From: a virus | Strand: one strand, 5' to 3' | DNA: 64,000 nucleotides | IMG/VR virus record: IMGVR_UViG_3300020202_000001 | Span: 62,001 to 126,000 of that record | In this document: piece by piece, positions 34,275-60,823 of the stretch | How the letters are laid out: every line of letters starts with the position of its first letter | How positions within the stretch are numbered: the stretch's first letter is position 1 | Notes under the pieces: generated by a model | Told to the model about the DNA's origin: nothing | The model's database searches: none | Seen by the model: the letters and a program-made list of their open reading frames with translations, nothing else | Made by a program: the position numbers and the translations under genes

Positions 34275-34298
34275 CACTTTCCCCCGTTCGGGTATTCC
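34271..34298 (+). promoter_or_regulatory. Promoter of the polymerase-fragment / AAA+ cassette
   Basis: TTGACA (34271-34276), 16-base spacer, TATTCC (34293-34298); a 71-base leader leads to the first cassette gene. The spacer contains CCCCCGTTCGGGT (34281-34293), identical to a 13-mer inside the minus-strand promoter at 60794-60823 and nearly identical to one at 50262. This shared motif is a candidate operator. Confidence 0.6.
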
Positions 34299-34344
34299 AC
34301 GCACCCAAGGTTTCCATTCAACGTACGATAAGGAGTAGCGACCC

Positions 34345-34800
34345 ATGACCATGACCGCCCGCGAGCCGAACCTCCAGAACGTCCCCGTCCCGCTCACCGA
34401 CGCCCAACGGGTCGAGAGCGGGCGGATTCGCCTGATGTTCGGCGACCCCAAGCCGGTGCTGCTGACGGCAGACTACTCGGCCGTCGAGCTGCGGCTGCTC
34501 GCCCACGCGTCCGTCCACGGCGTCGACGCCCTCGACCCGCAGGCCGCCAAGGCCCGCGACGACGAGGACGAGGACGAGGAGGACGACGAGGACGATGACG
34601 ACGGCGACCTCCTCGACGACGACGAGGAGGACGAGGACGAGGAGGACGACGAAGACGACGACCTCGACGACGACGAGGATGACGACCTCGACGACGACGA
34701 GGACGACGATCTCGATGACGACGACGAGGACGACGACGACTTCGACGACGACGAAGACGACGAGGACGACGAAGACGACCTCGACGATGACGACGAGTAG
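34345..34800 (+). CDS. DNA polymerase A motif-A fragment fused to an Asp/Glu repeat tail
   Basis: 151 aa. Residues 6-14 (R-E-P-N-L-Q-N-V-P) and 39-56 (L-L-T-A-D-Y-S-A-V-E-L-R-L-L-A-H-A-S) match the family-A DNA polymerase palm, including motif A with its catalytic Asp (Asp43) and the D-Y-S-x-x-E-L-R signature. Everything else of a polymerase is missing: no motif B, motif C or exonuclease. From residue 72 to the end the protein is almost only Asp and Glu in D-D-E-D-type repeats. AAGGAG lies 11 bases upstream. It cannot be an active polymerase alone. It could be a split-polymerase piece, a DNA-mimic decoy, or a relic captured by an acidic tail. The next genes form one transcript with it. Confidence 0.8.
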   Translation: MTMTAREPNLQNVPVPLTDAQRVESGRIRLMFGDPKPVLLTADYSAVELRLLAHASVHGVDALDPQAAKARDDEDEDEEDDEDDDDGDLLDDDEEDEDEEDDEDDDLDDDEDDDLDDDEDDDLDDDDEDDDDFDDDEDDEDDEDDLDDDDE

Positions 34801-34815
34801 AGGAAGAGGAGAGCC

Positions 34816-35073
34816 TTGCTTCTAGTCGAAGGGACCATCCCCATCCACCCCGTGACCACGGCGGCCGCGACGGCCGACCCCAAGGAAGCGGCCCGACGCT
34901 TCCTCGCCGAACACCCGACCGCCCGGCTTGAGAGCATCGGCGGCAAGATCGTTCGGGGGGTGTGCCAGCGCTGCGGCACCCCGGTCATGGAAGACACGAA
35001 GGGCCACGCGTACGACCCCGAGACCGAGGCGTACACCTGCCCGAGCTGCAACCAAGGAGACAACCGGCCATGA
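34816..35073 (+). CDS. Zinc-ribbon protein
   Basis: 85 aa. Two Cys pairs, C-Q-R-C near residue 50 and C-P-S-C near residue 76, about 25 residues apart, form a rubredoxin-like zinc ribbon. The N-terminus (residues 1-40) is a basic/hydrophobic helix without motif. The TTG start follows an AAGAGGAGAG site. It overlaps the DUF1257-like gene by four bases (ATGA). Probably binds nucleic acid or a protein partner within the cassette. Confidence 0.6.
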   Translation: MLLVEGTIPIHPVTTAAATADPKEAARRFLAEHPTARLESIGGKIVRGVCQRCGTPVMEDTKGHAYDPETEAYTCPSCNQGDNRP

Positions 35074-35591
35074 GCCATGTGACCAGCTTCGAGCCCGACG
35101 AGAAGGACCAGCAGATCCGGGACCTCCCGGCCCTGGCTCGCGCCGCCGAGCGGTGCGGCCTGGAGTTCCGCGAGGGCCAGACCAGCTTCCACACCTGGGC
35201 CACCGACCACGGCCGCCTCGTCGGCGACTGGCCGGTCCCGCAGGGGTACACCCAGGCCGACATCGTGGGCGGGCAGTGCCTGCACGCGATGGGCATCCCC
35301 GGCAAGAAGGGCGTCCGCGGGACCGAGGGCTACGAGATCGGCATCGTCGAGAGCAAGAAGAACCCCGGCACCTACAGCATGCTCTTCGACTTCTTCAGCA
35401 GCTCGCTCTCCAGCAAGGTGAGCAGCGGCGCGAAGGACGCGAAGGGGAACGTGAAGCCCGACAAGCTCCACATGTTCTACCAGATCGAGGCGGCCCGCAC
35501 GGTCGCCAAGGCCAAGGGGTTCTCGTTCCAGGAGATCCCGCAGCCGGACGGCTCGATCACGGTGAAGTGCGGCAAGTCCGCCACGTTCTGA
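35070..35591 (+). CDS. DUF1257-like (Ycf35-related) protein
   Basis: 173 aa. Begins M-S-H-V-T-S-F, followed by a helix-beta pattern with I-R-D-L-P-A-L-A-R-A-A-E-R-C-G-L-E-F near residues 17-34 and Y-E-I-G-I-V-E-S ... G-T-Y-S-M-L-F-D-F-F near 88-108, closely reminiscent of DUF1257 proteins, which start M-S-H-F and end with a Y-x-I-G-x-V ... Y-x-L-V-x-D pattern. In cyanobacteria and planctomycetes such genes commonly sit beside a Ycf46-type AAA+ ATPase and a small DUF2997 protein, exactly as here. Biochemical role unknown; the match is by pattern and context. Confidence 0.6.
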   Translation: MSHVTSFEPDEKDQQIRDLPALARAAERCGLEFREGQTSFHTWATDHGRLVGDWPVPQGYTQADIVGGQCLHAMGIPGKKGVRGTEGYEIGIVESKKNPGTYSMLFDFFSSSLSSKVSSGAKDAKGNVKPDKLHMFYQIEAARTVAKAKGFSFQEIPQPDGSITVKCGKSATF

Positions 35592-35617
35592 GCGGCCACG
35601 GCCGCGGCACCCCGGTA

Positions 35618-35641
35618 GATCCCAAAACCGGTTTTTAGAAG
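35618..35641 (+). repeat. Dispersed AT-rich dyad, copy 6
   Basis: GATCCCAAAACCGGTTTTTA then GAAG: the A and T runs are shifted by one relative to copy 1, keeping the dyad. It lies between the DUF1257-like and DUF2997-like genes, 11 bases before the next GTG; the ribosome site GAGGAG overlaps its end. A short GCGGCC/GGCCGC hairpin precedes it. Confidence 0.85.
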
Positions 35642-35652
35642 AGGAGCACCCC

Positions 35653-35865
35653 GTGGAAGGTCCCCACATCCTGATGAAGTTCGCGATCGGCAAGCCGGTC
35701 GAGGTCCGCGTGAACGGCGTGAAGGGCTCGGCGTGCCGGGCGTTCTCCAAGCCGTTCGAGGACGCGATCGGCGGCAAGGTCGTCGCCGACGTCCCCACCG
35801 CCGAGATGACTCAGCCCGCGACGGTCGGGGCCGAGGTCAAGGCCGGCGGCGGCAAGACGTTCTGA
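35653..35865 (+). CDS. DUF2997-like small protein
   Basis: 70 aa. The stretch V-E-V-R-V-N-G-V-K-G-S-A-C-R-A-F (residues 17-32) followed by F-E-D-A-I-G-G-K-V matches the DUF2997 pattern in which a beta-strand with V-x-G-x-x-G-x-x-C precedes a helix ending E-x-A-L-G. Such proteins accompany DUF1257 and Ycf46-like ATPases. The GTG start has a good GAGGAG site. Presumably a ubiquitin-like or adaptor-sized partner; function unknown. Confidence 0.6.
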   Translation: MEGPHILMKFAIGKPVEVRVNGVKGSACRAFSKPFEDAIGGKVVADVPTAEMTQPATVGAEVKAGGGKTF

Positions 35866-35911
35866 CCCCACGACCCGCGCGAGACGTACCCGACGACGAC
35901 GACGACACCAC

Positions 35912-35940
35912 GCCGGCCCCGGGCTCCACCTGGGGCCGGC
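35912..35940 (+). terminator. Hairpin between DUF2997-like and AAA+ genes
   Basis: GCCGGCCCC / GGGGCCGGC, nine perfect pairs around an 11-base loop, followed by TCGCTTCCCG rather than a T run. It may lower transcription into the ATPase gene or stabilise the upstream mRNA. Confidence 0.55.
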
Positions 35941-35965
35941 TCGCTTCCCGAAGGTAAGTAAGCAC

Positions 35966-37549
35966 ATGGCTCGACTGAAAAAGGAAATCAAGGAGGCCAT
36001 CGCGGCCGCCTTCAGCGGAATCTGGATCAACAGCTACGAGCACGAGGACGCCCTCGCCGCCATCTCCGAGGCGTGCAAGGAGCACACCTGGCAGCTCATC
36101 ACCTGGGACCCGGAGTTCGGCGTCCGCAGCCCCGAGGACAAGAACCCGACCCCGAGCGACGACGAGCCGAACCCGGCGATCGCCCTCCACCAGCTGCTGA
36201 AGCTGGACACGGAGGAGAACCGGGCGATCCTCGTGCTTCGCAACGTGCTGCCGTACCTGGCCAGCGCCGAGGGCCGCGTCGGCAGCCCGCGGTTCCTGCA
36301 GGTCCTGCAGCGGACGATCGAGCAGGGAGCCCAGGACGGGCACCACGTCGTCATCCTCTCCTACGACAACCTCGCGGTGCCGCGCGAGCTGGAGAAGATG
36401 GTCTACATCATCGACCACGACCTCCCCGACGCCGAGGAGCTGCACGACCTGATGGCGTCGGTCGAGGACAACGAGGCCAAGCTCCCGGCCAAGGACAGCC
36501 CCGAGGCCAAGCTGCTGACCGACGCGGCGGCCGGGCTCACGCGGCTGGAGGCCCTCGGGGCGTTCAGCAAGAGCAAGGCGAAGCACCGCATGCTCAAGCC
36601 CGACGTGCTCTGGGAGCTGAAGGCGAAGATGCTCCAGAAGACCGGGCTGCTGGAGATGCTGACGAAGAAGACGGTCGCGGCGAACGACACGCCGATCGGC
36701 TTCTCGATGCTCGGCGGCCTGAACGTGCTCAAGGGCTTCTGCAAGAACATGTTCGACAGCCCGAACCGCAGCAAGAAGGTCCGGCCGCTCGGCGTCATGC
36801 TGGTCGGCCCGTCCGGCACGGGCAAGTCCGCGTTCGCCACCAGCCTCGGCGACGAGATCGGGTGGCCGACCGTGCGGCTCGACCCGGGCAAGCTGATGGG
36901 CAGCCTGGTCGGCGACACGGAGGCGAACACGCGGCGTGCCCTGAAGACGATCGACGCGATGAGCCCGTGCGTCCTGATGGTCGACGAGGTCGAGAAGGCC
37001 CTGGCCGGCAGCGGCGGCGGTGCCCACGACAGCGGCGTCGGTGCCCGCCTGCTCGGGTCGCTGCTGACGTGGATGAACGACCACACGAGCGAGGTCTTCA
37101 TCATCATGACCTCGAACGACATCACCGGGCTGCCGCCGGAGTTCACCCGGGCCGAGCGGTTCGACGGCATCTTCTTCCTCGACCTCCCGGGCAAGGAGCA
37201 GCGGGAGATGGTGTGGGACATCTACACCACCTACTACGCCAAGCACGGGCTGACGAAGGAGATGATCGCCGAGCGGCCGGACGACGAGAACTGGACGCCG
37301 GCGGAGATCAAGGCGAACTGCCGGCTGGCGACGCTGCACAACACGACGCTCAAGGAGGCGTCGAAGTTCATCGTCCCGGTGTACAAGACGAGCAAGGAGA
37401 AGATCGTCGCCCTGCAGCAGTGGGCGACGAACCGCACGCTCAGCTCCGACTACCCGGGGATGTACGACATCAACGGGCCGAAGAAGCTGGTCACGACGAT
37501 GGAGGAGGGTGCCCCCGCCCGCCCCCGCCGCCGCGTCACGCGGGCGTAA
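35966..37549 (+). CDS. Ycf46-like AAA+ ATPase
   Basis: 527 aa. An N-terminal half without motif (helical, with W-D-P-E-F at residues 48-52) precedes an AAA+ domain with Walker A G-P-S-G-T-G-K-S (281-288), Walker B V-L-M-V-D-E-V (336-342), sensor-1-like I-M-T-S-N-D-I and an R-F-D-x-I-F-F-L-D-L-P element. The order and spacing match Ycf46-type AAA+ proteins of cyanobacteria, plastids and planctomycetes, whose neighbours are DUF1257 and DUF2997. ATP-dependent remodelling of an unknown partner is likely. ATG start; GAAGG is 13 bases upstream. A hairpin follows the gene. Confidence 0.8.
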   Translation: MARLKKEIKEAIAAAFSGIWINSYEHEDALAAISEACKEHTWQLITWDPEFGVRSPEDKNPTPSDDEPNPAIALHQLLKLDTEENRAILVLRNVLPYLASAEGRVGSPRFLQVLQRTIEQGAQDGHHVVILSYDNLAVPRELEKMVYIIDHDLPDAEELHDLMASVEDNEAKLPAKDSPEAKLLTDAAAGLTRLEALGAFSKSKAKHRMLKPDVLWELKAKMLQKTGLLEMLTKKTVAANDTPIGFSMLGGLNVLKGFCKNMFDSPNRSKKVRPLGVMLVGPSGTGKSAFATSLGDEIGWPTVRLDPGKLMGSLVGDTEANTRRALKTIDAMSPCVLMVDEVEKALAGSGGGAHDSGVGARLLGSLLTWMNDHTSEVFIIMTSNDITGLPPEFTRAERFDGIFFLDLPGKEQREMVWDIYTTYYAKHGLTKEMIAERPDDENWTPAEIKANCRLATLHNTTLKEASKFIVPVYKTSKEKIVALQQWATNRTLSSDYPGMYDINGPKKLVTTMEEGAPARPRRRVTRA

Positions 37550-37590
37550 CCACACGCGACCGAACGACAGGTAGCCCTGTCAAGGAAGAC

Positions 37591-37620
37591 GGGCCACGGC
37601 GCACCACCGCGCCGTGGCCC
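37591..37620 (+). terminator. Strong terminator-like hairpin
   Basis: GGGCCACGGCGC / GCGCCGTGGCCC, 12 perfect pairs around ACCACC, closing the AAA+ cassette. No T run follows, so termination may need Rho or the hairpin may act as an mRNA end-protector. Confidence 0.6.
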
Positions 37621-37645
37621 GCTGCGTTAGCAGACGGAGACCGTG

Positions 37646-39202
37646 ATGACGATGACGGCCAAGAAGCCGCTACCCAGGCTGGCCCCCGAGGGGCCAACCC
37701 AGAAACCACAACAGAGCGACGCGGACCGCCAGCGGAAGGCCCGCGTCGCCAAGCTCGCGAGCGAGGTGGCGACCACCACCGCCGAGAACGACGTGACCCT
37801 GACCCAGGCCGAGGTCAGCGAGGCGATCGAGATCTGCCGGGGCGTGTACAAGCTCCGCGGCGAGGACGGCCTGCAGCAGCTGAAGGGCGCGAAGATCACC
37901 GGCCGCGTCCTGATCGGGAAGCACCGGGAGCACGGCAACAGCGTCGAGGCGATGCTGCAGTCGCTGTTCCCGTCGTTGTTCGACAAGGTCGCCGGCGTCG
38001 ACGTGGACGCCGAGGCCAAGAAGCTGATGGCCGAGTGCGGGGCCGTGAAGATCACCTGGTCCTGGTTCCGCACCGGGATCAAGGTCGACAAGGCCTCGAA
38101 GGCGGCCATGGCGACGGCGGCCGGCACGACCGACAGCGGGTTCAGCGCGAACAAGCGGCTGATGGGCTCCACCCACCCGACGATCAAGGAGGCGAACGAG
38201 CTGCGGGGCCGGATCACCGGCTACGTCCGCGGGATCTCGCTCCCGGTCACGAAGCTCGGGGAGGCCGGCGGCAAGAAGAAGGAGGGCGGCGTCGTCCTGA
38301 TCCGCAAGAAGGACCTCGCCGACTTCGAGGAGCGGATGACCGCGTTCATCGCCGAGCTGAAGACGATGGAGCAGAAGGTCAACGACGCGATGCCCTCGAT
38401 CAAGGAGGCGGACCGCCAGCGGCTCGGCGAGCTGTTCAAGGAGGGCGACTACCCGCCGGCCGTGCAGCTCCGCATGGGGTACTACGCGGTCAACCTCGAA
38501 CCGCCGGCGTACCTGGAGAAGTTCGCCCCGAAGATGTTCGAGCGGGAGCGGCGGAAGGCCGAGGGCTGGTGGCAGGGCGTGTACGAGAACGCCGCCGCCG
38601 AGTTCATGGAGGAGTTCAAGGCGGTCATCGGCACCTGGGTCGAGGCCCTCGGCCCGATCGTCAAGATCTACCCGGACGAGGAGCACAAGCTCGCCCGGCT
38701 GAGCGGGGCGGAGGTCCGCCAGCGGATCACGAACAAGGAGGACCCCGACGTCCCGGTCGGCAAGGTGCAGCTCGTCGTCCGGTACAAGAAGCCGGGCGAC
38801 AAGAACATCACGGAGGAGACGCTCGCGCCGATGACGACGGCCGAGTACGCGGACCTGAAGCCGAACGAGACGGCCGACAAGTGCCGGACGTTCAAGAACA
38901 GCACGGTCGAGAACCTGCTCGACATGGTGACGAAGTTCCGCACGCTCGGGGCGACGATCTCCGCGAGCAAGGACTTCGCCGGGCTGGTGGACGAGATCGA
39001 GTCCCAGGTGAAGAAGGCCGGCAACAAGGCCGTCGACATCGGGGACGAGCTGCGGGTCAGCAAGAGCTTCCGCGGCACGATCCACGCCCTGATGCAGCAG
39101 GCGTCGGACAAGCTCGCCGGCGAGATCCAGACGTTCACCAAGCGGCGTCGCAAGGTGGACACGACCATCATGGCCGACGACCAGGTCGAGGCCGAGGAGT
39201 AG
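37646..39202 (+). CDS. Large helical protein, unknown
   Basis: 518 aa. Mostly alpha-helical; residues about 35-90 have a heptad-like pattern, and residues about 210-330 contain repeated acidic/basic helices around E-G-W-W-Q-G-V-Y-E-N-A-A. ATG at 37646 (six bases after GGAG) is preferred over an in-frame GTG three bases earlier. No catalytic motif recognised. It follows the AAA+ cassette after a hairpin and may start a new transcript. DUF3150-like proteins were considered but the match is not convincing. Confidence 0.55.
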   Translation: MTMTAKKPLPRLAPEGPTQKPQQSDADRQRKARVAKLASEVATTTAENDVTLTQAEVSEAIEICRGVYKLRGEDGLQQLKGAKITGRVLIGKHREHGNSVEAMLQSLFPSLFDKVAGVDVDAEAKKLMAECGAVKITWSWFRTGIKVDKASKAAMATAAGTTDSGFSANKRLMGSTHPTIKEANELRGRITGYVRGISLPVTKLGEAGGKKKEGGVVLIRKKDLADFEERMTAFIAELKTMEQKVNDAMPSIKEADRQRLGELFKEGDYPPAVQLRMGYYAVNLEPPAYLEKFAPKMFERERRKAEGWWQGVYENAAAEFMEEFKAVIGTWVEALGPIVKIYPDEEHKLARLSGAEVRQRITNKEDPDVPVGKVQLVVRYKKPGDKNITEETLAPMTTAEYADLKPNETADKCRTFKNSTVENLLDMVTKFRTLGATISASKDFAGLVDEIESQVKKAGNKAVDIGDELRVSKSFRGTIHALMQQASDKLAGEIQTFTKRRRKVDTTIMADDQVEAEE

Positions 39203-39208
39203 CACGCG

Positions 39209-39877
39209 ATGTTCCCGACGCGAGGCAGCGACTGGCTGGACTACCCGCCCCAAGGGCTGGCGTGGGTGAAGCACGTCACCCGCCCATCGGACCTGAACCT
39301 GAACGAGTCGGGCGGGTACGCCTTCTCGTTGACGTTCAGCAACTTCGACAAGAAGGTCCTGATGGGGCCGGACGACTTCCTGCTGGTCGCCGCACAGGAG
39401 GACAACCCGGCCGCCGACACCGGCGCGCCGGGTGGTCCTCCGCGTCGGTACCGCTTCGTGCTCGTCAGCGGGAAGGTGACGCGGGACTTCGACGACAAGG
39501 ACGTGATCTCGCCCGTGCGGGACCACGACATCCGGGTCGCGTACCAGAAGGCCCTGCAGGCCGGGATCGTGCCCGAGCACAAGGTGCAGAGCGGGCGGCA
39601 CAACCAGATCTACCAGATGGCGGTGTACTGCTACATGCACTACCACGCCAACGGACACCCGGCGGCCGTGCCGGCGAAGGCGAAGAAGTTCGTCCCGCCC
39701 AAGGCCGTCGTCCCGTTCCCCGGCCTGGCCCGAAAGAAGCGACGCATCGACGTCGGCCTGCTGGCCGACGAGGACCGGGACGACCCGGCCGAGGAGACGA
39801 AGAAGGAGCGGCCGCGTGGCCAAGCGAAAGCCGGCAGGCGGAAGCCCCGCCGACCCCCGCCCGACTACCGACTGTGA
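39209..39877 (+). CDS. Hypothetical protein
   Basis: 222 aa; GAGGAG precedes the ATG. The N-terminal half is beta-rich with W-L-D-Y-P-P-Q-G; a central conserved-looking stretch H-N-Q-I-Y-Q-M-A-V-Y-C-Y-M-H-Y-H (about residues 131-146) is rich in His and Tyr and could bind metal or nucleic acid. The Arg/Lys/Pro-rich tail overlaps the next gene by 62 bases. Family not recognised. Confidence 0.55.
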   Translation: MFPTRGSDWLDYPPQGLAWVKHVTRPSDLNLNESGGYAFSLTFSNFDKKVLMGPDDFLLVAAQEDNPAADTGAPGGPPRRYRFVLVSGKVTRDFDDKDVISPVRDHDIRVAYQKALQAGIVPEHKVQSGRHNQIYQMAVYCYMHYHANGHPAAVPAKAKKFVPPKAVVPFPGLARKKRRIDVGLLADEDRDDPAEETKKERPRGQAKAGRRKPRRPPPDYRL

Positions 39878-45437: not shown

Positions 45438-45460
45438 ATCCAAAAACCGGTTTTGAGAAG
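45437..45460 (+). repeat. Dispersed AT-rich dyad, copy 7
   Basis: AATCCAAAAACCGGTTTTGA then GAAG, beginning in the preceding stop codon; the following GAAGGAGG ribosome site overlaps its end, and the next GTG lies eight bases on. Same layout as copy 1. Confidence 0.9.
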
Positions 45461-49042: not shown

Positions 49043-49522
49043 ATGGAACTGAACACCGCTATCATCACCTGGTGCGATCGCACGCTGAACCCGCGGCCCG
49101 GCTACTACGCCGGACGCGGACCCAAGCGGGGCGACCTGAACGACAAGCACCTCCAGCAGCTGTGGGCCGGCATCAAGAAGGACTTCGGCGACGAGCAGGC
49201 GGCCGAGTTCGTGAAGATGGTCGCGGACCTGAAGGACATGAGCGCCACGGCGTTCCTCGTGTCCATGGAGCACTTCTGGGCTCACGGCCTGAAGTGGACC
49301 GGCCGCGAGCAGGAGCCGGGCGACGGCAACACGATGTCCGCCCGGGGCGACGATCGGTTCACCGAGGGCATGTGCGTCATCGCCTCCGTCCTCGGCCGGC
49401 AGAACTCGTCGCCCGAGCAAGAGGCGTTCGAGTCCTACAACATCAAGGCCCCGTTCCTGCGACGGCACGGAGTCGAGATCGAGCCGCCAGCCCTCGGCGG
49501 CGAAGTCTTCGGGTACCGATGA
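49043..49522 (+). CDS. Hypothetical protein
   Basis: 159 aa, mixed alpha/beta with Trp-rich and His residues (H-F-W-A-H-G-L-K-W). Stop overlaps the start of the kinase-like gene (ATGA). A short spacing of three bases follows the previous stop. No family recognised. Confidence 0.5.
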   Translation: MELNTAIITWCDRTLNPRPGYYAGRGPKRGDLNDKHLQQLWAGIKKDFGDEQAAEFVKMVADLKDMSATAFLVSMEHFWAHGLKWTGREQEPGDGNTMSARGDDRFTEGMCVIASVLGRQNSSPEQEAFESYNIKAPFLRRHGVEIEPPALGGEVFGYR

Positions 49523-50454
49523 AGAAACCCAGGCCGAAGCGACGCCTCGACATCCCCACGGTCTCCGGCAAGTTCGGGACCGGGGCGACGGTGTGGGGCG
49601 CGAAGCACGAGTACACGGTCGGGAAGCTGGTCGGACAGACCACGACGAGCGACCTGTACCTCGCGACCCCCGGCGTCGGCGACCCCGCCTTCATCAAGAT
49701 CGTCCGCGACCCGGACGACAACGACCTCGCCGAGCGTGAGGTCGAGATCCTGAGCCACGTCTACCCCCGCGTCTGGGCGGAGGGCAAGAAGTACCTGCCC
49801 CAGCTCGTCGAGGTCGTCGACGTGTCGGACGAGGACGGCAAGCGGAAGGCGCTCGTCTTCCCGTACGACCCGCGGTTCTACTCGCTGGCCGAGGTGCTGG
49901 CCGAGTACCCGCAGGGCGTCGAGCCGAAGCACGCGGCGTGGATGATTAACCGGATGCTGGAGGCGATCCACTTCGCCAACTACACGGCCGGCGTCGTCCA
50001 CGGGGCGCTGCTGCCCCACAACTTCCACGTCCACGCCGACACGCACGCCGGGCTGATGACCGAGTGGTCGTTCGCGGCCCGCGACGCGTACGAGGTTCAC
50101 GACGGCTCGGGCACGAACCTGAAGCCGGGCGAGGACGTCGTCGCGGTCGACGACGCGTACCAGGCGTGGTACCCGCCGGAGGTGCTGAAGAAGGAGCCGC
50201 ACAACTTCTCGGTCGACCTGTGGATGATGAGCAAGTGTGCGATCCAGCTGTTGGGCGGTGACCCCCTTTCGGGTAAGCTGCCCGCGTCGGTGCCGAAGCC
50301 GATCGCCGGGTTCCTGCGGTACATCACGCTCCAGCAGGACCCGTCGAAGCGGCCGCAGGAGGCCCTCAAGCTCCACGACGAGTTCGGCGACATCTGCAAG
50401 CAGGTGTTTGGCCCCAAGAAGTTCCACAAGTTCCACATGCCGCCGCGGGCGTAA
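49519..50454 (+). CDS. Protein kinase-like pseudoenzyme
   Basis: 311 aa with a protein-kinase fold pattern: glycine-loop-like V-G-Q-T-T-T-S-D-L-Y-L-A (residues 35-46), F-I-K-I-V with the Lys in the VAIK position, A-E-R-E-V-E-I-L as helix C, and Y-T-A-G-V-V-H-G-A-L-L-P-H-N where a kinase has H-R-D-x-K-x-x-N. The catalytic Asp is missing and there is no D-F-G, so it should be inactive. W-Y-P-P-E-V-L resembles the A-P-E motif. It precedes a vWA gene; a dyad repeat and a promoter-like motif lie between. Regulatory scaffold role inferred. Confidence 0.7.
   Translation: MKKPRPKRRLDIPTVSGKFGTGATVWGAKHEYTVGKLVGQTTTSDLYLATPGVGDPAFIKIVRDPDDNDLAEREVEILSHVYPRVWAEGKKYLPQLVEVVDVSDEDGKRKALVFPYDPRFYSLAEVLAEYPQGVEPKHAAWMINRMLEAIHFANYTAGVVHGALLPHNFHVHADTHAGLMTEWSFAARDAYEVHDGSGTNLKPGEDVVAVDDAYQAWYPPEVLKKEPHNFSVDLWMMSKCAIQLLGGDPLSGKLPASVPKPIAGFLRYITLQQDPSKRPQEALKLHDEFGDICKQVFGPKKFHKFHMPPRA
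50251..50279 (+). promoter_or_regulatory. Promoter-like site inside the pseudokinase gene
   Basis: TTGGGC, 17-base spacer, TAAGCT. The spacer and -10 contain CCCCCTTTCGGGTA (50262-50275), differing by one base from the motif in the promoter at 34271. It would direct transcription of the vWA gene about 240 bases downstream. The -10 is weak. Confidence 0.4.
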
Positions 50455-50464
50455 CCGCGGGGCA

Positions 50465-50488
50465 GTTCCAAAAACCGGTTTTGAGATC
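50465..50488 (+). repeat. Dispersed AT-rich dyad, copy 8
   Basis: GTTCCAAAAACCGGTTTTGA then GATC, ten bases after the pseudokinase stop and 30 bases before the vWA start. A CCGCGG/CCGCGG hairpin spans the upstream stop. Confidence 0.9.
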
Positions 50489-50518: not shown

Positions 50519-51493
50519 ATGGGCGGTAGCAACTTTTCCTCCGAAGCGTACGCCACGAAGTCCGTCCTCCGCGCCAGCGCCGGCGTCGCGGGCCGGTCCA
50601 CGATGCACACCAAGGCCGTCAGCGAGGGCAAGGCCCCGGCGCTGCACGACAAGATGAGCCCGATGGGCGTGAAGGTCCGCGAGAGCCGCGACAGCGCCGT
50701 GCACCCGAACAGCACGGGCGTGATCTTCCTGCTCGACGTCACGGGCAGCATGGGCCAGGTGCCCGTGCAGATCCAGAAGCACCTGCCGGTCCTGCCCGAG
50801 ACGCTCGTCAAGGGCGGGCACCTGCCCGACGCCGCGATCATGATGATGGCGGTCGGCGACGCCTACTGCGACACGGTCCCGCTCCAGGTCGGGCAGTTCG
50901 AGTCCGGCAACGAGATGGACGAGGACCTCGACCGCCTCTACATCGAGGGCGGCGGGAGCCCCGGCCACATGGGCGGCCACGAGAGCTACGAGCTGGGCAT
51001 GTACTTCGCCGCCCGGCACACCGCGATGGACTGCCTGGAGAAGCGGAACCGCAAGGGCTACCTCTTCATCGCGTGCGACGAGATGCCGTACGACGTCGTC
51101 AAGCGCGACCAGGTCAAGCGGATCATGGGGCCGACCGCCGAGATCGAGGCGGACATCCCGCTCGACGAGATCGTCGCGGAGCTGAAGAAGAAGTTCCACG
51201 TCTACGTCCTGATCGCGCCGACCGCGTCCGGCCAGCAGCCCGCCGTCCGCCAGCGGTGGCAACAGCTGTTCGGCGAGAACGTCATCATGCTCCCCAGCGC
51301 CGAGCAGACGGCGAAGCTCGTGGCCGACTGCATCGCGGCCAACGAGGAGGCGATCGGCAAGGGCCAGGTCTTCGCGACGGCGGACGACGACGCCGGCGGC
51401 GACGACGCGGACGCCGACGACCACGGCAGCGGTGGCACGGCCACCGCCACCAAGCCCGCCGTGAAGAAGCCCGGCAAGGCCAAGCGGCTGTAA
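50519..51493 (+). CDS. vWA-domain protein
   Basis: 324 aa. Residues about 66-260 form a von Willebrand factor A domain: beta-strand G-V-I-F-L-L-D followed by the MIDAS D-x-T-x-S-x type motif D-V-T-G-S-M-G (Asp73), later I-M-M-M-A-V-G-D and Y-L-F-I-A-C-D-E. The MIDAS differs from D-x-S-x-S only by T for S. The C-terminal ~40 residues are Asp/Ala/Lys-rich and disordered. Start ATG with AAGGAG upstream. vWA proteins usually bind partners through a metal; its neighbour is a pseudokinase, recalling vWA-kinase operons, and a Ycf46-type ATPase is encoded 13 kb upstream. Confidence 0.8.
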   Translation: MGGSNFSSEAYATKSVLRASAGVAGRSTMHTKAVSEGKAPALHDKMSPMGVKVRESRDSAVHPNSTGVIFLLDVTGSMGQVPVQIQKHLPVLPETLVKGGHLPDAAIMMMAVGDAYCDTVPLQVGQFESGNEMDEDLDRLYIEGGGSPGHMGGHESYELGMYFAARHTAMDCLEKRNRKGYLFIACDEMPYDVVKRDQVKRIMGPTAEIEADIPLDEIVAELKKKFHVYVLIAPTASGQQPAVRQRWQQLFGENVIMLPSAEQTAKLVADCIAANEEAIGKGQVFATADDDAGGDDADADDHGSGGTATATKPAVKKPGKAKRL

Positions 51494-51559: not shown

Positions 51560-53056
51560 ATGCAGCAGACGAAGGTTTACGTCGTTGTCGATCTGGGCTT
51601 CGGTGACGCCGGCAAGGGCACGGTCGTGGACTACCTGGTCCGCACGCGCAAGGCCGGCACCGTGGTCCGATTCAACGGCGGGGCACAGGCGGCCCACAAC
51701 GTGACGCTCCCGGACGGCCGGCGGCACCCGTTCAGCCAGTTCGGCAGCGGGACGTTCGTGCCGGGCGTGAAGACGTACCTCACCGAGGACGTCCTGTTCG
51801 ACCCCAACTCCCTGCTCGGCGAGGAGGCCGCCCTGCAGGCGCTGGGCGTGACCGACGCGTTCGAGCGGTTCGCGGTGCACGAGGAGTGCCTCGTCGTCAC
51901 CCCGTTCCACCGGACGGCCAACCGGCTGCGGGAGGTGGCCCGCGGCGACAAGCCGCACGGGAGCTGCGGGATGGGCATCGGCGAGGCGATGTCCGACGCC
52001 ACCGGCCGCGACAAGGTCGCGATCCGCGTCAAGGACCTACTGCTGCCCGCCGACGAGCTGCGGCGGAAGCTGGAGTGGGTGCGGCAGTACAACGAGGGCA
52101 AGGCGCTCGTCTACTACCCGAAGTACAAGGAGCACCAGCTGGGGCAGGGCCTCGACCCATCGGCCGTCGAGTGGTTCCTCGACCAGTGCCGCCGCGTGGC
52201 GGACCTGGTGACGATCGCCGATGACGCGTACGAGGACAAGCACGTCTTCAACTGCGACAGCGACCAAGTCGTCGTGTGCGAGGGAGCACAGGGCGTCCTG
52301 CTCGACGAGCACTACGGGTTCCACCCCTACACGACGTGGAGCACGGTGACCCCGCACCGGGTGCTGGAGAAGATCCGCGAGGCGAACTACATCACCGGCA
52401 CGGTCGGCGGCGAGGTCGAGCGGGTCGGCGTGACGCGGGCGTACCAGACGCGGCACGGGGCCGGGCCGTTCCCGACGTGGGAGCGGGGCGGCAAGGCGTG
52501 GGAGCACCTCGGTGCCCCCGACGCCAACAAGGAGCACGAGTGGCAGGGCAAGTTCCGCGTGGGCTGGCTCGACACCGTGCTCCTGCGGTACGCGATCGAG
52601 GCGTGCAGCGTGCCGTGGTCGACGCAGACGATCGACTGGCTGGCCGTGACGTGCCTCGACCGGCTGCACGGGGCGTTCCCGCAGGTGCCGGTCTGCACGC
52701 ACTACGTCCAGTACCGGGCGGACGCGAAGAAGGTCAGGCACCTGCCGGTCGCCCGCCGGCCCACGCTCGGCGGGCAGGAGATCCTCACGGAGTTCCTGAT
52801 GGGTGCCCAGCCGAGCCAGTTCCCCCGGTTCGACGTGAGCTACCAGGCGGTCGACTACGACCACCTGCTGCCGTACATCGAGCAGCAGGTGGGCGTCCCG
52901 GTGGGGCTCTCCAGCCGGGGGCCGACGTGGCAGGACAAGCTCGAACACGAGGCGTGGGTCGTGCACGGGATTTACGGCAAGACGAAGGTGAAACATGGGC
53001 CTGAAGAAGTCGGTCGAAATCCTGGCGAAACTCAACTTCAGTTCCGAACGCCTTAG
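51560..53056 (+). CDS. purA: Adenylosuccinate synthetase homologue
   Basis: 498 aa. G-F-G-D-A-G-K-G (residues 13-20) is the phosphate-binding loop with catalytic Asp16; G-G-A-Q-A-A-H with His46 matches the second catalytic residue; V-V-V-C-E-G-A-Q-G-V-L-L-D and T-W-S-T-V-T-P fit later substrate motifs. PurA makes adenylosuccinate from IMP, aspartate and GTP. Phage PurZ enzymes that make 2-aminoadenine precursors replace this Asp with Ser, so the retained Asp argues for PurA-type chemistry, but the loops are divergent and the real substrate is open. The last ~20 residues overlap the next gene. Confidence 0.8.
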   Translation: MQQTKVYVVVDLGFGDAGKGTVVDYLVRTRKAGTVVRFNGGAQAAHNVTLPDGRRHPFSQFGSGTFVPGVKTYLTEDVLFDPNSLLGEEAALQALGVTDAFERFAVHEECLVVTPFHRTANRLREVARGDKPHGSCGMGIGEAMSDATGRDKVAIRVKDLLLPADELRRKLEWVRQYNEGKALVYYPKYKEHQLGQGLDPSAVEWFLDQCRRVADLVTIADDAYEDKHVFNCDSDQVVVCEGAQGVLLDEHYGFHPYTTWSTVTPHRVLEKIREANYITGTVGGEVERVGVTRAYQTRHGAGPFPTWERGGKAWEHLGAPDANKEHEWQGKFRVGWLDTVLLRYAIEACSVPWSTQTIDWLAVTCLDRLHGAFPQVPVCTHYVQYRADAKKVRHLPVARRPTLGGQEILTEFLMGAQPSQFPRFDVSYQAVDYDHLLPYIEQQVGVPVGLSSRGPTWQDKLEHEAWVVHGIYGKTKVKHGPEEVGRNPGETQLQFRTP

Positions 53057-55856: not shown

Positions 55857-55876
55857 CCCCACGTCCCCCGCCGTAC

Positions 55877-55906
55877 CGCCCGGGCCTGCCCAGCCCGGGC
55901 GTTTTC
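55877..55906 (+). terminator. Intrinsic terminator
   Basis: CGCCCGGGC / GCCCGGGCG, nine perfect pairs around CTGCCCA, followed by TTTTC. The clearest Rho-independent terminator in the window. Confidence 0.85.
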
Positions 55907-55919
55907 ATGGAGGGCACGG

Positions 55920-56348
55920 ATGCCACCGCCACTGACGAAGAAGCAGCGGAGCCGCAAGCAGGAGATCAGCGCCGAGTACGCCGAGCTGCTGCTCGCGATG
56001 CAGGAGGCCTGCGAGGCGACGGGCCGCGACTTCAAGACCGAGATGAAACAACTGGTCCGGGTGTGGATGAAGTTCTACTCGCCGGACACGCTACCACCGG
56101 AGGTACCGCAGGATGTCGGATACGGACCCGCCGCCCGGACTGGCGGCGCTGGAGGCCGAGCGGGACGGCTACTCGCCCTGGTACAGGGAGCTGGACTGGC
56201 CGGCGAAGCGGCAGGTGCAGTCGATCCAGTGGGACCTGATCCAGGCCGGCTGGGCGACGCTGACCTTCCCCTACCGGAACGCGATGGCGTGCTGGGTGGA
56301 GGCGTGCCGCCGGTTCCGCACGGGCAACGCGACGAACAAGCCGCCTGA
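55920..56348 (+). CDS. Hypothetical basic helical protein
   Basis: 142 aa; residues 1-63 (K-K-Q-R-S-R-K-Q-E-I-S-A-E-Y) form a basic helical domain, and the rest overlaps the next gene by 236 bases in another frame with low-complexity Gly/Ala content. GAGGGC lies seven bases upstream. The real protein may be much shorter than the reading frame. Function unknown. Confidence 0.45.
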   Translation: MPPPLTKKQRSRKQEISAEYAELLLAMQEACEATGRDFKTEMKQLVRVWMKFYSPDTLPPEVPQDVGYGPAARTGGAGGRAGRLLALVQGAGLAGEAAGAVDPVGPDPGRLGDADLPLPERDGVLGGGVPPVPHGQRDEQAA

Positions 56349-56409
56349 GCCGACCGCAGTGGTCGTCTCCGCGCGGCGACTCAACCGCCTGACGAAGTGG
56401 GACGCATAA
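56113..56409 (+). CDS. Hypothetical protein
   Basis: 98 aa, Trp- and Arg-rich, with W-Y-R-E-L-D-W-P-A-K-R-Q-V in the middle; the helical C-terminus ends at the start of the PP-loop enzyme. Codon usage favours this frame over the overlapping one. No family recognised. Confidence 0.5.
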   Translation: MSDTDPPPGLAALEAERDGYSPWYRELDWPAKRQVQSIQWDLIQAGWATLTFPYRNAMACWVEACRRFRTGNATNKPPEPTAVVVSARRLNRLTKWDA

Positions 56410-57890
56410 TGGGCGCTGTCAAGACGAAGGACCTGACCCGCGAGGTGCTGCTCCGGCAGCTGACGAAGATCTCCAAGCTGCGGAAGCGGGACCCGCTCGT
56501 GATCCTGAGCCACGGGCTCGGCGTCGAGACGGCCGCGATCTGGAAGCGGTGGGTCGAGGAGCCCGAGACCCGCCCGTTCAAGAGCTGGGACCGGCTGATC
56601 GTGGTGACCGCCCAGGTCGGCCACGAGCACGCCGAGACCGTGAAGCTGATGGAGGAGCACCAGCTCCCCGAGATGAAGCGGCTGGGCGTGCGGTTCGTCG
56701 AGGTGGCCCGCCGCGGGCACCTGGAGGCGGACGGGATCGTCGTGCTGCAGGACACGCGGGCACCGGAGAAGCTCCACCCCGAGGGGTACTACAAGCTCGG
56801 CGACGAGCTGAAGCACGCCGGCACGGTCCCGCAGTACAGCGGCGAGCACCGCTGCGCGTTGAAGTTCAAAGCCTTCGTCATCGAGACGTGGATGGCGTAC
56901 GAGTTCCGGGGCGACGAGTCCCGGCCGGTCGTCCACGTCTGGGGCTACAACGCCGGGGAGCTGGGCCGCACGGCCAAGAGCGAGAAGTACGTCAGGCAGC
57001 ACAACAAGGACCGCGAGAAGCCGGCCGGCAAGGGGCAGGCCCCGCTCGTCGTGTTCGGGTTCAACAGCGAGGAGCTGGGCCGCGTCGAGCGGTCGCGGAA
57101 GTACGACGGCCCGACCCGCACCGGGCACTACCCGCTGATCGAGTGGGGCTGGGGCCGCCCGGAGTGCCTGGCGTACCTGACCGGGCACTACAAGGTGCTG
57201 TGGATCAAGAGCGCGTGCGGGTTCTGCCCGTTCAACGAGGAGGCGTACAAGGTCACGCAGATCGGCATCGACCGGTTCCGTCGCGACCCCGACGCCACGG
57301 TGGACGGGCTGTTCGTCGAGTTCGTGTCGCTCAGCCTCAACCCCAAGGGCCAGCTCTACCGGGACCGGACGATGGCGTCGGTCGTGGAGGGCGACCCGAA
57401 GCTCGCCCACGTCTGGCGGGCGTTCCAGGCCCGGCTCGACGCCGAGAAGTGGGGCCTGTACCTCGTGCAGCGGATCTTCACGCTCGACCCCCGGCAGACG
57501 CACGTCCGCATGCTGGCGGGCAAGCCGCCCAAGGCCGGCGTCGCGCGGGCGGTGAAGCTGCTGGACGGGAACCTGACCCGGGCGCAGGCGATCGAGGCCC
57601 TCGAACAGTGCGAGATCGAGAGCCTGGCCCACGGGATGCCGGGCGAGGTCGTGACCCGGGAGAAGGGCCTCCACGGCATCGAGTACGTGTACCTGCACAA
57701 GCGGCGGGACTACTACCCGGCCGTCGAGTGCTTCTACGTCGTCTGCCCGGCCGTCGTCGCCGACAAGGTGCGGGGGCCGTGGGAGACGTTCGAGCGGCGG
57801 TTCAAGTCAGCGCTGGCCGCCAAGCGGCCTAAGGCTAAGGTCCTGCCCAAGCTGGTGATCGAGGCCGACGACGACATCTACTTCCGCTGA
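56409..57890 (+). CDS. PP-loop (PAPS reductase-like) enzyme
   Basis: 493 aa. N-terminal L-V-I-L-S-H-G-L-G-V-E-T-A-A-I-W (residues about 29-44) is an altered ATP-pyrophosphatase loop of the S-G-G-x-D-S type; L-I-V-V-T-A-Q-V-G-H-E follows as the second strand, and a C-G-F-C-P-F motif sits near residue 275. This layout matches PAPS reductase/DndC/QueC-like PP-loop proteins, many of which adenylate sulfate or nucleobases. The altered loop (H for G, V-E-T) leaves activity open. A role in nucleotide or DNA modification is inferred. ATG at 56409 overlaps the previous stop. Confidence 0.65.
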   Translation: MGAVKTKDLTREVLLRQLTKISKLRKRDPLVILSHGLGVETAAIWKRWVEEPETRPFKSWDRLIVVTAQVGHEHAETVKLMEEHQLPEMKRLGVRFVEVARRGHLEADGIVVLQDTRAPEKLHPEGYYKLGDELKHAGTVPQYSGEHRCALKFKAFVIETWMAYEFRGDESRPVVHVWGYNAGELGRTAKSEKYVRQHNKDREKPAGKGQAPLVVFGFNSEELGRVERSRKYDGPTRTGHYPLIEWGWGRPECLAYLTGHYKVLWIKSACGFCPFNEEAYKVTQIGIDRFRRDPDATVDGLFVEFVSLSLNPKGQLYRDRTMASVVEGDPKLAHVWRAFQARLDAEKWGLYLVQRIFTLDPRQTHVRMLAGKPPKAGVARAVKLLDGNLTRAQAIEALEQCEIESLAHGMPGEVVTREKGLHGIEYVYLHKRRDYYPAVECFYVVCPAVVADKVRGPWETFERRFKSALAAKRPKAKVLPKLVIEADDDIYFR

Positions 57891-58270
57891 TGGCACTACC
57901 CTTCAGGACGACCGTCCCGGTCGCCAACGTGAACCGCGACGGCTTCAGGGGCGAGCGCCCGCTCCACATCGTCGGCCTGTCCGGCGGCGGGGAGCTGGTG
58001 ATCTGGCTCGGCGACAAGGACGGGCCGGACTGCGGCCGCCTGTTCGTCGAAGCCACGCCGCGCGGGTACCGGGTCGAGTTCTACAAGCCCAACGAGGACG
58101 GCGGCAACGCGATCCTGTCGATCGAGTCCGACGCCGCCCACTGCACGATCTCGGCCGACACCGACGAGCTGCGTGACATCGACGTCGTCACGACCGCCCC
58201 GCCGGTGCGGCTGCGATCGGGGAAGCGGCGGATCGAGACGCTGCCGCCGGACGCACCCGAGGTCAAATGA
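57890..58270 (+). CDS. Hypothetical beta-rich protein
   Basis: 126 aa, mostly beta strands with G-L-S-G-G-G-E-L-V-I-W-L and C-terminal basic residues. It starts on the last base of the PP-loop gene stop and overlaps the next gene by four bases (ATGA), forming a tight operon. Function unknown. Confidence 0.5.
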   Translation: MALPFRTTVPVANVNRDGFRGERPLHIVGLSGGGELVIWLGDKDGPDCGRLFVEATPRGYRVEFYKPNEDGGNAILSIESDAAHCTISADTDELRDIDVVTTAPPVRLRSGKRRIETLPPDAPEVK

Positions 58271-58494
58271 AGCAAGGCACGCTCCCCTTCCCCAAGCCCA
58301 AGCGGGAGAAGCGGGTCAACCTGAACCTCAACGAGCGGCACGTCCTGATCCACGTCATGTCCAACACGGGCACGATGTTGACGGCGAGCGTGCTGGCACG
58401 GACCGTCGCGCGGCTGATCCAGAAGAAGCTGCTCGACGCCGAAGGCAAGATCACGGAGGCCGGGCGTCAGTGGTACGCCCGGCGGAGAGTCTGA
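58267..58494 (+). CDS. Small winged-helix-like protein
   Basis: 75 aa, basic, with a helix-turn-helix-like arrangement (H-V-L-I-H-V-M-S-N-T-G-T-M-L-T-A-S-V-L-A-R) and a beta-wing-like K-L-L-D-A-E-G-K-I-T-E-A-G. Could be a transcriptional regulator; this rests on pattern only. Overlaps the preceding gene. Confidence 0.45.
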   Translation: MKQGTLPFPKPKREKRVNLNLNERHVLIHVMSNTGTMLTASVLARTVARLIQKKLLDAEGKITEAGRQWYARRRV

Positions 58495-58496
58495 AC

Positions 58497-58859
58497 ATGG
58501 AGCACCCGAACACGGTCGACCTGACCGGCCCGTCCAAGTCTTACATCCACGGCACGATCGAGGGGGACCTGTGGATGGGCGGCAAGGGCACGATGAGTTT
58601 CAACGTCACGCTCGACGAGGGCGACGACATCGCCGACGTCGCCGAGGCGCTGAAGAAGCAGCGGTTCGGCGACTTCCAATCGGGCAGCGTGCAGATCCGC
58701 TTCGCTGCCGTCACGACGGTGTGGCGGCCGGACCCGCAGACGGAGGTGAAGCGGACGGTGGAGCTGACGCCCGGCATGCCCGAGGTGGCCGACCTCTTCA
58801 CCGACGAGCGTCGTGAAGAGTGGGCGGAGGCCCACCCGGAGGAGGCGACCCCCGCGTGA
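58497..58859 (+). CDS. Hypothetical protein
   Basis: 120 aa, acidic, with a beta/alpha pattern (I-E-G-D-L-W-M-G-G-K-G-T) and a C-terminal acidic helix. ATG follows the previous stop by two bases; stop overlaps the next start (GTGA). Function unknown. Confidence 0.5.
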   Translation: MEHPNTVDLTGPSKSYIHGTIEGDLWMGGKGTMSFNVTLDEGDDIADVAEALKKQRFGDFQSGSVQIRFAAVTTVWRPDPQTEVKRTVELTPGMPEVADLFTDERREEWAEAHPEEATPA

Positions 58860-59026
58860 AGCACCTCATCGTCTTCCTGTGGATCATCAACCCGCGGCGT
58901 GCCGCGGGCTGGCGTGACTTCTACGACAGGTGCGTCGACTGGTGGGCCGGGACCCGCTGGGCCGACTCCATGACGTGGCCCGAACTCGTGCGGGCCGTCG
59001 AGGCGTGGGACGGGTGGCCGCTATGA
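58856..59026 (+). CDS. Small Trp-rich protein
   Basis: 56 aa; GTG start inside the previous stop. Trp-rich (W-I-I-N, A-G-W-R, V-D-W-W-A-G-T-R-W) with a hydrophobic N-terminal segment (H-L-I-V-F-L-W-I-I) that may associate with membrane. Overlaps the next gene by four bases. Function unknown. Confidence 0.5.
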   Translation: MKHLIVFLWIINPRRAAGWRDFYDRCVDWWAGTRWADSMTWPELVRAVEAWDGWPL

Positions 59027-59148
59027 CGTTCTTCGCGTTCTGCGACAAACACAAAACGACGGCGGCGGAGCGGAAGGAGTTGGCCTGGTACCTGGCCTTC
59101 CTTCGGCTCCGCCGCACGATCGAGGCGTTGGCCCTGATCCGGGTCTAG
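59023..59148 (+). CDS. 41-aa helical miniprotein
   Basis: Helical, Lys/Arg/Leu-rich (E-R-K-E-L-A-W-Y-L-A-F-L-R-L-R-R). Last gene of the PP-loop operon, coupled through ATGA. Its stop overlaps by four bases with the stop of the only minus-strand gene in the window, so the two transcripts converge. Function unknown. Confidence 0.5.
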   Translation: MTFFAFCDKHKTTAAERKELAWYLAFLRLRRTIEALALIRV

Positions 59149-60746
59149 TCGTGCCCGGTGCACCGCTCGTAGCGGATCTTCGCGGGGGTGCCGTCCCGCT
59201 TCATCGGGTTGACGATCTTGACCGCGTTCTTCTTGATGTCGACCCGCGGGCCGGCACCGCCGCCCTGGAAGACGAACGTGTCGCCGTCGTCCAGGATGGT
59301 GAAGTTGCTGATGACGAGGTTGTGCAGCCGCCAGTTGTCACGCTCGTCGCCGGCGTCGTCGCGCTCGTAGTTGCGGGCACCGACGTGACCACCCTCGTCC
59401 TTGGCCGGGGCGAGGTGGCCGCTGCACCAGTCGATGAGCGTGTCCTTCGTCTCGTTGACGTCCCACGGGTACGAGTAGCAGTGGAGCCCTTGGCAGCTCT
59501 TGTAGATGAAGTTGAACTCCCGCAGCTCGGCCTCGGTGACGACGGCCTTGCCGTAGGTGTCCGACAGCACGCCGGCCTCGCGGCACAGGGCGATCTTGTC
59601 GTCCATCCCGTTGCTCTTGTCGGTGGAGATCTCGATCTTGTCCCCGGCGGCCGTCCACAGCCGCTTGGGGTCGGCCAGCGTCATGCGGTCGGTGACGCAG
59701 AGGATCATCACCCAGTTCGAGTTGTTGATGTCGCCCCAGCGGGAGGCGTTCTTGCCGTTGCGGATGATGCAGCGGATGTAGAGGGCCGCGTTCGTGCGGG
59801 TCGACTTGCCCTCGCCCGCCCCGTCGCGGTGCCCCTCGTAGTTGCACCCCTCCGTCTCGCAGTCCCAGAAGATCGAGCGGTCGTGCTTGCCGCCGATGCC
59901 CGCAGCCCCGCCGCGCAGGCTCTTCACGCGACGCATGCGGCCGTCGCTCCCGTCCCAGGCGATGTTCACGCCGGCCCCGTCGATCACCAGGCCGTCCGTG
60001 AGGTGCCAGCCGGTGCCGGGCTGGAACATGCCGTTCTTGTTGTCCGGCCCCTTCTTGCCGCCGGTCTTCTTGCCGTCGATCTTGAAGCCGGCCAGGCGGA
60101 CGTTCTTCGCGCCGCGGTGGGCGAAGATCTTCCCGCCCGTGACCTCGAACACCATCTCGCCGTCCTTGCACAGGATGTCGACGTCGTGCTCGGGGTCGAA
60201 GACCGGGTAGTGCCCGGGCTTCGCGAGGAACTTGCCCTTCTTGCCGGTGAAGTTATACCCCGGCTCCACCGTGGTACGATCCCCGGTGTCCGGCGGCGGG
60301 ACCTCGACCTTGAACTCCTCGGGGTCGGCGACGTTGGAGAACTCGGAGTAGCGGGTCACCCCGTCGAGCCCGACCTTCACGCCGCGGACCTTGTACGCGT
60401 ACGGCACGTCCTTCTGAATGGGGAGGCGTTCTTCCCAGAGCGACGCGCCGGCGGGGGCGGTTCCCACGAGCTGCCAGCGTTCGACGCCGTCCGTGACGTC
60501 GTCGTCCCGCCAGACCTCGAACGTCGTGGGCAGCCGGCCGGAGTTGGCCGGGGCCGTGAAGACCAGCTCGACCAGCAGCCCGGTGCCCTCGGCTTCGAGG
60601 CGTGCCTGGAGGTCGGTCGGCTGGACGGGCAGCTCGGGCTGGGGCAGATCGGTCCCCAGCTCGGCGGCCACCTGGTTGATCGCCAGCAGCTGCTGGCCGA
60701 TCGCCTGCGTTGCGGTGTGCAACATCGCGACGTGTGCTCTGCTCAT
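59145..60746 (-). CDS. Beta-helix protein with FN3-like domain (sole minus-strand gene)
   Basis: 533 aa. Start chosen at 60746, where GAGAGGA precedes the ATG and a promoter lies upstream. Residues 1-55 are helical; about 60-165 have the strand and W-x-x-V/Y-x-Y-x-V pattern of a fibronectin type III domain; from about 180 to the end are short G/N/D-turn repeats (e.g. V-R-L-A-G-F-K-I-D-G, G-L-V-I-D-G-A-G-V-N-I-A-W-D-G) typical of a right-handed beta-helix, as in pectate lyases and phage tailspikes. It could be a host-polysaccharide depolymerase or an adhesin. It is expressed separately from the tail operon. Confidence 0.7.
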   Translation of the reverse strand: MSRAHVAMLHTATQAIGQQLLAINQVAAELGTDLPQPELPVQPTDLQARLEAEGTGLLVELVFTAPANSGRLPTTFEVWRDDDVTDGVERWQLVGTAPAGASLWEERLPIQKDVPYAYKVRGVKVGLDGVTRYSEFSNVADPEEFKVEVPPPDTGDRTTVEPGYNFTGKKGKFLAKPGHYPVFDPEHDVDILCKDGEMVFEVTGGKIFAHRGAKNVRLAGFKIDGKKTGGKKGPDNKNGMFQPGTGWHLTDGLVIDGAGVNIAWDGSDGRMRRVKSLRGGAAGIGGKHDRSIFWDCETEGCNYEGHRDGAGEGKSTRTNAALYIRCIIRNGKNASRWGDINNSNWVMILCVTDRMTLADPKRLWTAAGDKIEISTDKSNGMDDKIALCREAGVLSDTYGKAVVTEAELREFNFIYKSCQGLHCYSYPWDVNETKDTLIDWCSGHLAPAKDEGGHVGARNYERDDAGDERDNWRLHNLVISNFTILDDGDTFVFQGGGAGPRVDIKKNAVKIVNPMKRDGTPAKIRYERCTGHD

Positions 60747-60793
60747 TCGCGTCCTCTCGTTGTGAACCCACACTCGTACTTTACGTTGCGCTG

Positions 60794-60823
60794 AGGATAC
60801 CGTCCCCCGTTCGGGTGTTGCAA
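60794..60823 (-). promoter_or_regulatory. Promoter of the minus-strand beta-helix gene
   Basis: On the minus strand, TTGCAA, 18-base spacer, TATCCT, about 48 bases before the ATG. The spacer holds the complement of CCCCCGTTCGGGT (60804-60816), identical to the motif in the promoter at 34271. Confidence 0.65.

Follow-up and report, generated by a model that had tools for sequence, protein, structure and literature searches.

The locus and the virus record

The 64,000-bp stretch analysed here (the window) corresponds to bases 62,001-126,000 of the virus record IMGVR_UViG_3300020202_000001, whose full length is 224,418 bp. It carries two repeated DNA elements that are the subject of this work: motif A, a GC-rich dyad set in promoters, and motif B, a palindrome (TCAAAACCGGTTTTGA) spread over the genome and probably read by a ParB-like protein of the phage. 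PHROG and Pfam matches (polymerase, ribonucleotide reductase, AAA, tubulin-like and sigma-like proteins), together with terminase relatives, indicate a large tailed phage; among cultured phages, the terminase relatives reach only ~30% identity or below. Genes of the record were called by a simple codon-usage script, so gene starts are approximate; coding sequence makes up 91% of the record (204 kb) and intergenic DNA 9%. No tRNA was found in the window. Coordinates are those of the window unless the record is named.

An earlier examination of the letters alone (the sequence-only reading) had reported a 13-mer within the spacers of three promoters. These sites and their neighbouring genes are the following:

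34271-34298, plus strand: motif A promoter 1, TTGACA (34271-34276), 16-bp spacer, TATTCC (34293-34298); the spacer contains CCCCCGTTCGGG (34281-34292); upstream of the polymerase-A fragment gene
34345-34800, plus strand: DNA polymerase A motif fragment with acidic tail, 151 amino acids, served by promoter 1 (PF00476, E=8e-10, residues 4-56; phrog_17)
49519-50454, plus strand: kinase-like gene containing site 2 (phrog_3043 kinase, E=4e-21 on a longer reading from 48847; Pkinase below cut-off)
50251-50279, plus strand: motif A site 2, TTGGGC (50251-50256), 17-bp spacer, TAAGCT (50274-50279); the spacer contains CCCCCTTTCGGG; inside coding sequence
50519-51493, plus strand: gene that follows site 2 and the motif B copy at 50468 (E=4e-51 to phrog_2971, of unknown function; no Pfam match)
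59145-60746, minus strand: gene behind promoter 3, judged beta-helix-like by eye; its start is taken at the ATG that follows GAGAGGA; no Pfam match
60794-60823, minus strand: motif A promoter 3, TTGCAA (60823-60818), 18-bp spacer, TATCCT (60799-60794); the spacer contains CACCCGAACGGGGGACGG

The 13-mer occurs exactly, on the plus strand, as CCCCCGTTCGGGT at 34281-34293 and 60804-60816 and as CCCCCTTTCGGGT at 50262-50274, in agreement with the positions given before; three copies compare with 0.01 expected, and none of 100 shuffles of the window reached three. Promoter hexamers could be read at all three places. Sites 1 and 3 are intergenic, with start codons ~50 bp away. Site 2 falls within the coding sequence 49519-50454, in frame, and one of its codons is CTT, which is rare (1.3% of Leu codons); one such site was seen in coding DNA against 0.17 expected when synonymous codons were permuted, so that its placement as a promoter is statistically indistinguishable from chance. 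As to the genes, the polymerase-fragment label of 34345-34800 was borne out by the PF00476 match, and the von Willebrand (vWA) label proposed for 50519-51493 found no confirmation in Pfam.

Motif A is a family of GC-rich dyads set in promoters

When two mismatches are allowed, the 13-mer becomes ordinary (nine in the window against 6.6 expected). The whole record holds six exact copies, against none for a reversed-pattern control, and the three outside the window (record 5223, 19447 and 187467) are all intergenic. The sequence-only reading had rightly seen a dyad, with a core (CCCGttCGGG) that proved too narrow, the wider element to which the 13-mer belongs being CCCCC-N4-GGGGG. Perfect copies of the latter occur at record 1071, 11796, 144645, 152321 and 179930, and all five are intergenic. 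Intergenic DNA contains 18 dyads at one mismatch or less, five of them exact; the mirror pattern GGGGGNNNNCCCCC gives four and none, respectively, and is not enriched. The 13-mer is part of a genuine family of GC-rich dyads set in phage promoters.

The association with sigma70-like promoters, also proposed earlier, was upheld. A fixed pattern of a dyad embedded in promoter hexamers occurs six times in intergenic DNA, compared with 0.025 in 200 dinucleotide shuffles (maximum 1); at two mismatches or less, nine matches are intergenic and one falls in the 204 kb of coding DNA, namely site 2. The median promoter score was 9.8 at 22 dyad sites listed by eye and 4.0 at random intergenic positions (p=2e-10). 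A constant place within a 16-18 bp spacer, which the sequence-only reading had proposed as a check, was not found: the dyad lies inside the spacer at record 1071, 5223, 11796, 47551, 96281, 122804, 152321, 179930 and 206555, covers the -35 at 4090, 33791, 144645 and 198061, and stands directly beyond a -10-like hexamer at 19446 and 187467. Since the position of the dyad around the hexamers varies, an operator for a repressor suits it better than a fixed part of the promoter.

The genes behind motif A sites include those for a tandem CsrA protein, the ribonucleotide reductase small chain, the polymerase-A fragment and the ParB-like protein described below. A recurring set of the size of a regulon is present, as had been suggested, although it is larger and more mixed than the three cassettes first named. 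We propose that motif A acts as a dyad operator, placed within or against some of the sigma70-like promoters; it would be bound by a dimeric regulator of phage or host origin that excludes RNA polymerase, and a dozen or more dispersed genes would in this way come under joint control.

Several products are worth recording beside this set. Of a family A DNA polymerase, the gene at 34345-34800 holds the motif-A region alone, followed by a long Asp/Glu tail; the phage also encodes a full polymerase, to which a uracil-DNA-glycosylase-like domain is fused (record 170701-174174). The tandem CsrA gene (record 11238-11729, minus strand) encodes an RNA-binding regulator with two CsrA domains, and its promoter carries a perfect motif A dyad. 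A response-regulator receiver domain devoid of an output domain (record 206203-206550) lies just upstream of the motif A promoter at 206555. A stand-alone LuxR-type helix-turn-helix protein of 95 amino acids (PF00196, record 7193-7480) is one possible regulator of motif A, and sigma-factor-like proteins at window 9781-10539 and 62018-62776 (region 3 with HTH_38; regions 2 and 4) may be phage-specific transcription factors.

Motif A is nearly confined to this phage, with isolated look-alikes in two relatives (G300 and G303). A class of host promoters was considered and rejected, the strict promoter-dyad pattern having only 17 matches in 84,980 genomes. Four of these 17 represent one repeat in a single Planctomycetota genome, with none in the rest of the 294 genomes of the phylum. 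The repeat has four intergenic copies of ~250 bp (L034, L036, L041 and L043) and contains TTGACA-dyad-TACTCT; the only Rfam family near it is Acido-Lenti-1, close to two of the copies. The sole viral match to motif A, contig L027, is not a clear relative of the phage.

Motif B forms a regularly spaced network over the whole genome

Motif B was noticed at two places, adjacent to site 3 and 206 bp beyond site 2. Its full form, CCAAAAACC(G/A)GTTTTGAGAT, has nine copies in the window, with none expected:

1254-1274, plus strand: motif B copy
7629-7649, plus strand: weak copy, three mismatches, in coding DNA
15973-15993, plus strand: motif B copy
23236-23256, minus strand: weak copy, three mismatches
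30359-30379, plus strand: motif B copy in coding DNA
35618-35638, minus strand: motif B copy
45440-45460, plus strand: motif B copy
50468-50488, plus strand: motif B copy, 30 bp before the gene at 50519
60839-60859, plus strand: motif B copy immediately ahead of the gene at 60870, with motif A site 3 at a distance of 23 bp

Across the record there are 31 sites (14-bp core, two mismatches or less), 28 of them intergenic, about one every 7 kb over the entire genome. Their spacing is regular, with a coefficient of variation of 0.43, where intergenic positions drawn at random give 1.23 (p=2e-4), and many sites stand 14-40 bp before start codons. The core is palindromic, and the flanks occur in both orientations before plus-strand genes. 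Motif B lies within 80 bp of motif A at eight of 21 A sites, compared with 3.0 expected (p=0.007, on the list of A sites made by eye). A tubulin/FtsZ-like gene (record 205001-206140) has a motif B copy just upstream (204834), and a site is found at the matching place in the relative G002 (78660).

The exact motif B 19-mer has no occurrence in viral contigs. A de novo count of palindromes showed that each of five relatives has its own, different dominant palindrome:

G300: AAAAAGTACTTTTT
G303: CTCAAA-N6-TTTGAG
G002: CAAAA-N4-TTTTG, centre CCGT
G001: TTCATC-N4-GATGAA
G301: TAGAA-N6-TTCTA

Alongside AAAAAGTACTTTTT, TTAAAATCCGGATTTTAA is another palindrome of the relatives. By the same count, the 52-kb G302 has no dominant palindrome. 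Spacing is regular in G300, G301 and G303. At two mismatches the G002 palindrome has 11 sites, three of which are in coding DNA. This relative (L022 to L026) also carries ~15 intergenic repeats of ~30 bp, TCATGCC-TCCCGGGGGCTTCGTACCCGGAGA, near gene starts and able to form hairpins, which were not seen in the phage of the window.

A ParB-like protein is the candidate reader of motif B

The gene at record 180009-180902, outside the window, encodes a ParB-like protein of 297 amino acids and has a motif B copy upstream. Homologues are present in all relatives included in the palindrome count; among cultured phages, none was detected at the threshold used. In seven of 14 cases (G000, G300, G303, G002, L093, L096 and L149) the palindrome proper to the lineage lies directly upstream of the ParB-like gene, and in G300 it is a perfect 24-bp palindrome. 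A prospective search gave further support: the palindrome that precedes the gene in L096 and L149 was looked for in the whole records, where it recovered 14 and 15 copies (control 0), then 12, 7, 6, 6 and 5 copies in another five records, which include close relatives of L096 and L149, and none in one (controls 0).

The predicted structure (mean predicted local distance difference test 82.6, predicted template-modelling score 0.50) points in the same direction. DNA-binding domains of Noc, Spo0J or ParB take all of the first 12 places among its structural matches (Z 8.2-10.6), the best being Noc 7nfu with Z 10.6 over 102 residues. A profile search placed Spo0J first (E=0.002), Foldseek also ranked ParB chains first with weak E-values, and Pfam HTH_ParB was just under the cut-off (E=4e-4). 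The structural matches begin at ParB residues ~117-143, past the CTPase domain, which is missing; the first 42 residues of the model are helical only. The network, its regularity, the lineage-specific networks of the relatives and their link to the ParB-like gene are direct observations. From the position of the gene and the prospective search, we conclude that motif B is probably read by this ParB/Noc-type protein. Bound along the genome, the protein would exert phage-wide control of transcription, including that of its own gene, which is the role we favour; organisation of the genome is the alternative.

Weighing of the interpretations

We regard an operator role for motif A combined with a ParB/Noc-type binder for motif B as the best explanation, with a probability of roughly 0.55. 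Several observations weigh against it. For motif A, the relatives have none or nearly none and thus offer no support from conservation, strong promoters lacking the dyad also occur, no binder was found, and the list of 21-22 sites was compiled by eye. For motif B, seven cases (G301, G302, G001, L105, L106, L131 and L156) showed no evident palindrome ahead of the ParB-like gene, the sites of G002 are irregularly spaced, and a transcription model does not require regular spacing.

Motif A could instead be a recognition part of the promoter. A sigma factor, of the host or of the phage, would then read the half adjacent to the -10 (TCGGG) as an extended -10 or as a discriminator, and the left C-tract would have a structural role or be incidental. 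Two sigma-like proteins are encoded by the phage, and intergenic DNA shows an excess of CGGGTANNNT in this phage (7 against 1.25), G300 (6 against 1.8) and G301 (5 against 1.3); the mild enrichment of CGGG directly before the -10 in the latter two keeps such a reading open. We nevertheless judge it rather unlikely, as the dyad is also found over the -35 or past the -10, unlike a fixed element, and the full dyad is enriched in this phage only. Less probable still is an operator of a host regulator, for instance a CsoR-like reader of G-tracts, which the phage would have taken over as a sensor of host state. Operators of the CsoR type are typically dyads of C- and G-tracts between promoter hexamers, and the phage itself has no CsoR family protein (PF02583 is absent from the record and present in eight of 14 control genomes); a phage-encoded CsoR was discarded, and one may be encoded by the host. 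Against this stands the rarity of the strict pattern (17 matches in 84,980 genomes; one of 294 genomes of one phylum). Two further accounts appear very improbable. The C5-N4-G5 dyad might form a small extruded hairpin (5-bp stem, short loop), as in the promoters of the phage N4 virion RNA polymerase; those promoters need no sigma70-like hexamers, which flank the dyads here, and a virion polymerase was not met among the genes examined, no direct search having been made. A mere by-product of GC-rich composition would agree with the ordinary count of the 13-mer at two mismatches and with site 2, which taken alone is compatible with chance, and is contradicted by the shuffle tests of the 13-mer and the promoter-embedded dyad and by the unenriched mirror pattern GGGGGNNNNCCCCC.

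For motif B, the competing view is that of a lattice serving chiefly the organisation or segregation of the genome, parS- or Noc-like, and not a transcription operator. Regular whole-genome spacing in four phages, the ParB/Noc-type fold and the tubulin/FtsZ-like gene in the record speak for it; the clustering of sites 14-40 bp before start codons, as regulation predicts, and the lack of the CTPase domain, driver of ParB spreading, speak against it, and we hold it to be possible, if unlikely. A broader proposal covering the relatives is offered tentatively, as somewhat less than an even chance: in a family of uncultured jumbo phages, a palindrome particular to each lineage may recur every ~5-15 kb over the entire genome as the mark for a stand-alone ParB-type DNA-binding protein devoid of the CTPase domain, the lattice serving genome-wide silencing, organisation or segregation, and the specificity shifting so that co-infecting phages would ignore each other's sites.

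Comparison with known systems

Motif A resembles the operators placed over sigma70 promoters, where a repressor excludes RNA polymerase, in being a dyad of the size of a protein-binding site that takes varying positions in the promoters of dispersed genes; no repressor was found for motif A. It also resembles the operators of the CsoR family, in which C and G tracts form the spacer dyad, the CsoR protein itself being absent from the record. The C5-N4-G5 dyad as such had no counterpart among the known systems compared.

Stoperators of Cluster A mycobacteriophages number more than 20 per genome, many in short intergenic spaces, with one at the regulator gene, and their sequences drift between relatives together with the regulator; they are asymmetric 13-mers in a single orientation, read by a monomer (PMC6550527, PMC9283540). 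The motif B network shares the many dispersed, chiefly intergenic sites (28 of 31), the site at the gene of the putative regulator and the drifting sequence, and differs in being palindromic, with flanks in both orientations, and in having a ParB-like candidate reader. KorB of plasmid RK2 combines a ParB-type DNA-binding domain and a CTPase clamp with several dispersed palindromic operators (PMC11790492); the phage protein has a DNA-binding domain of the same type, dispersed palindromes and, as a possible role, long-range silencing, but it lacks the CTPase domain and its network is larger. Likewise, Noc and Spo0J (ParB) of Bacillus and Staphylococcus share the DNA-binding-domain fold and the scattered palindromes, Noc sites being palindromes spread over the chromosome with a consensus core identical in two species (PMC5540599), whereas in the phage the CTPase domain is lacking and the palindrome varies between relatives. 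Because the CTPase domain is missing and the network is palindromic in both orientations, we assign it neither to canonical ParB systems nor to stoperators. The literature searched contained no description of genome-wide ParB-type sites in a jumbo phage.

Other features of the window

A relative of adenylosuccinate synthetase (51560-53056) is close to PHROG 1211 of the 2-aminoadenine pathway and keeps the Asp of GFGDAGKG; it may be PurZ or PurA, and the query returned no viral relatives. Long collagen-like Gly-X-Y repeats occupy 25784-28800, within a large gene (24746-29158).

Significance

Little is known of how jumbo phages coordinate their genes over 200 kb. Motif A provides a defined set of promoters that is open to transcript mapping. 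Motif B provides a predicted pair of protein and site, in which the site differs in each of several relatives, making ParB-type recognition and the purpose of even spacing testable. Control exerted over the entire phage genome would thereby be linked to the ParB/Noc/KorB family, whose networks of sites occur on plasmids and chromosomes.

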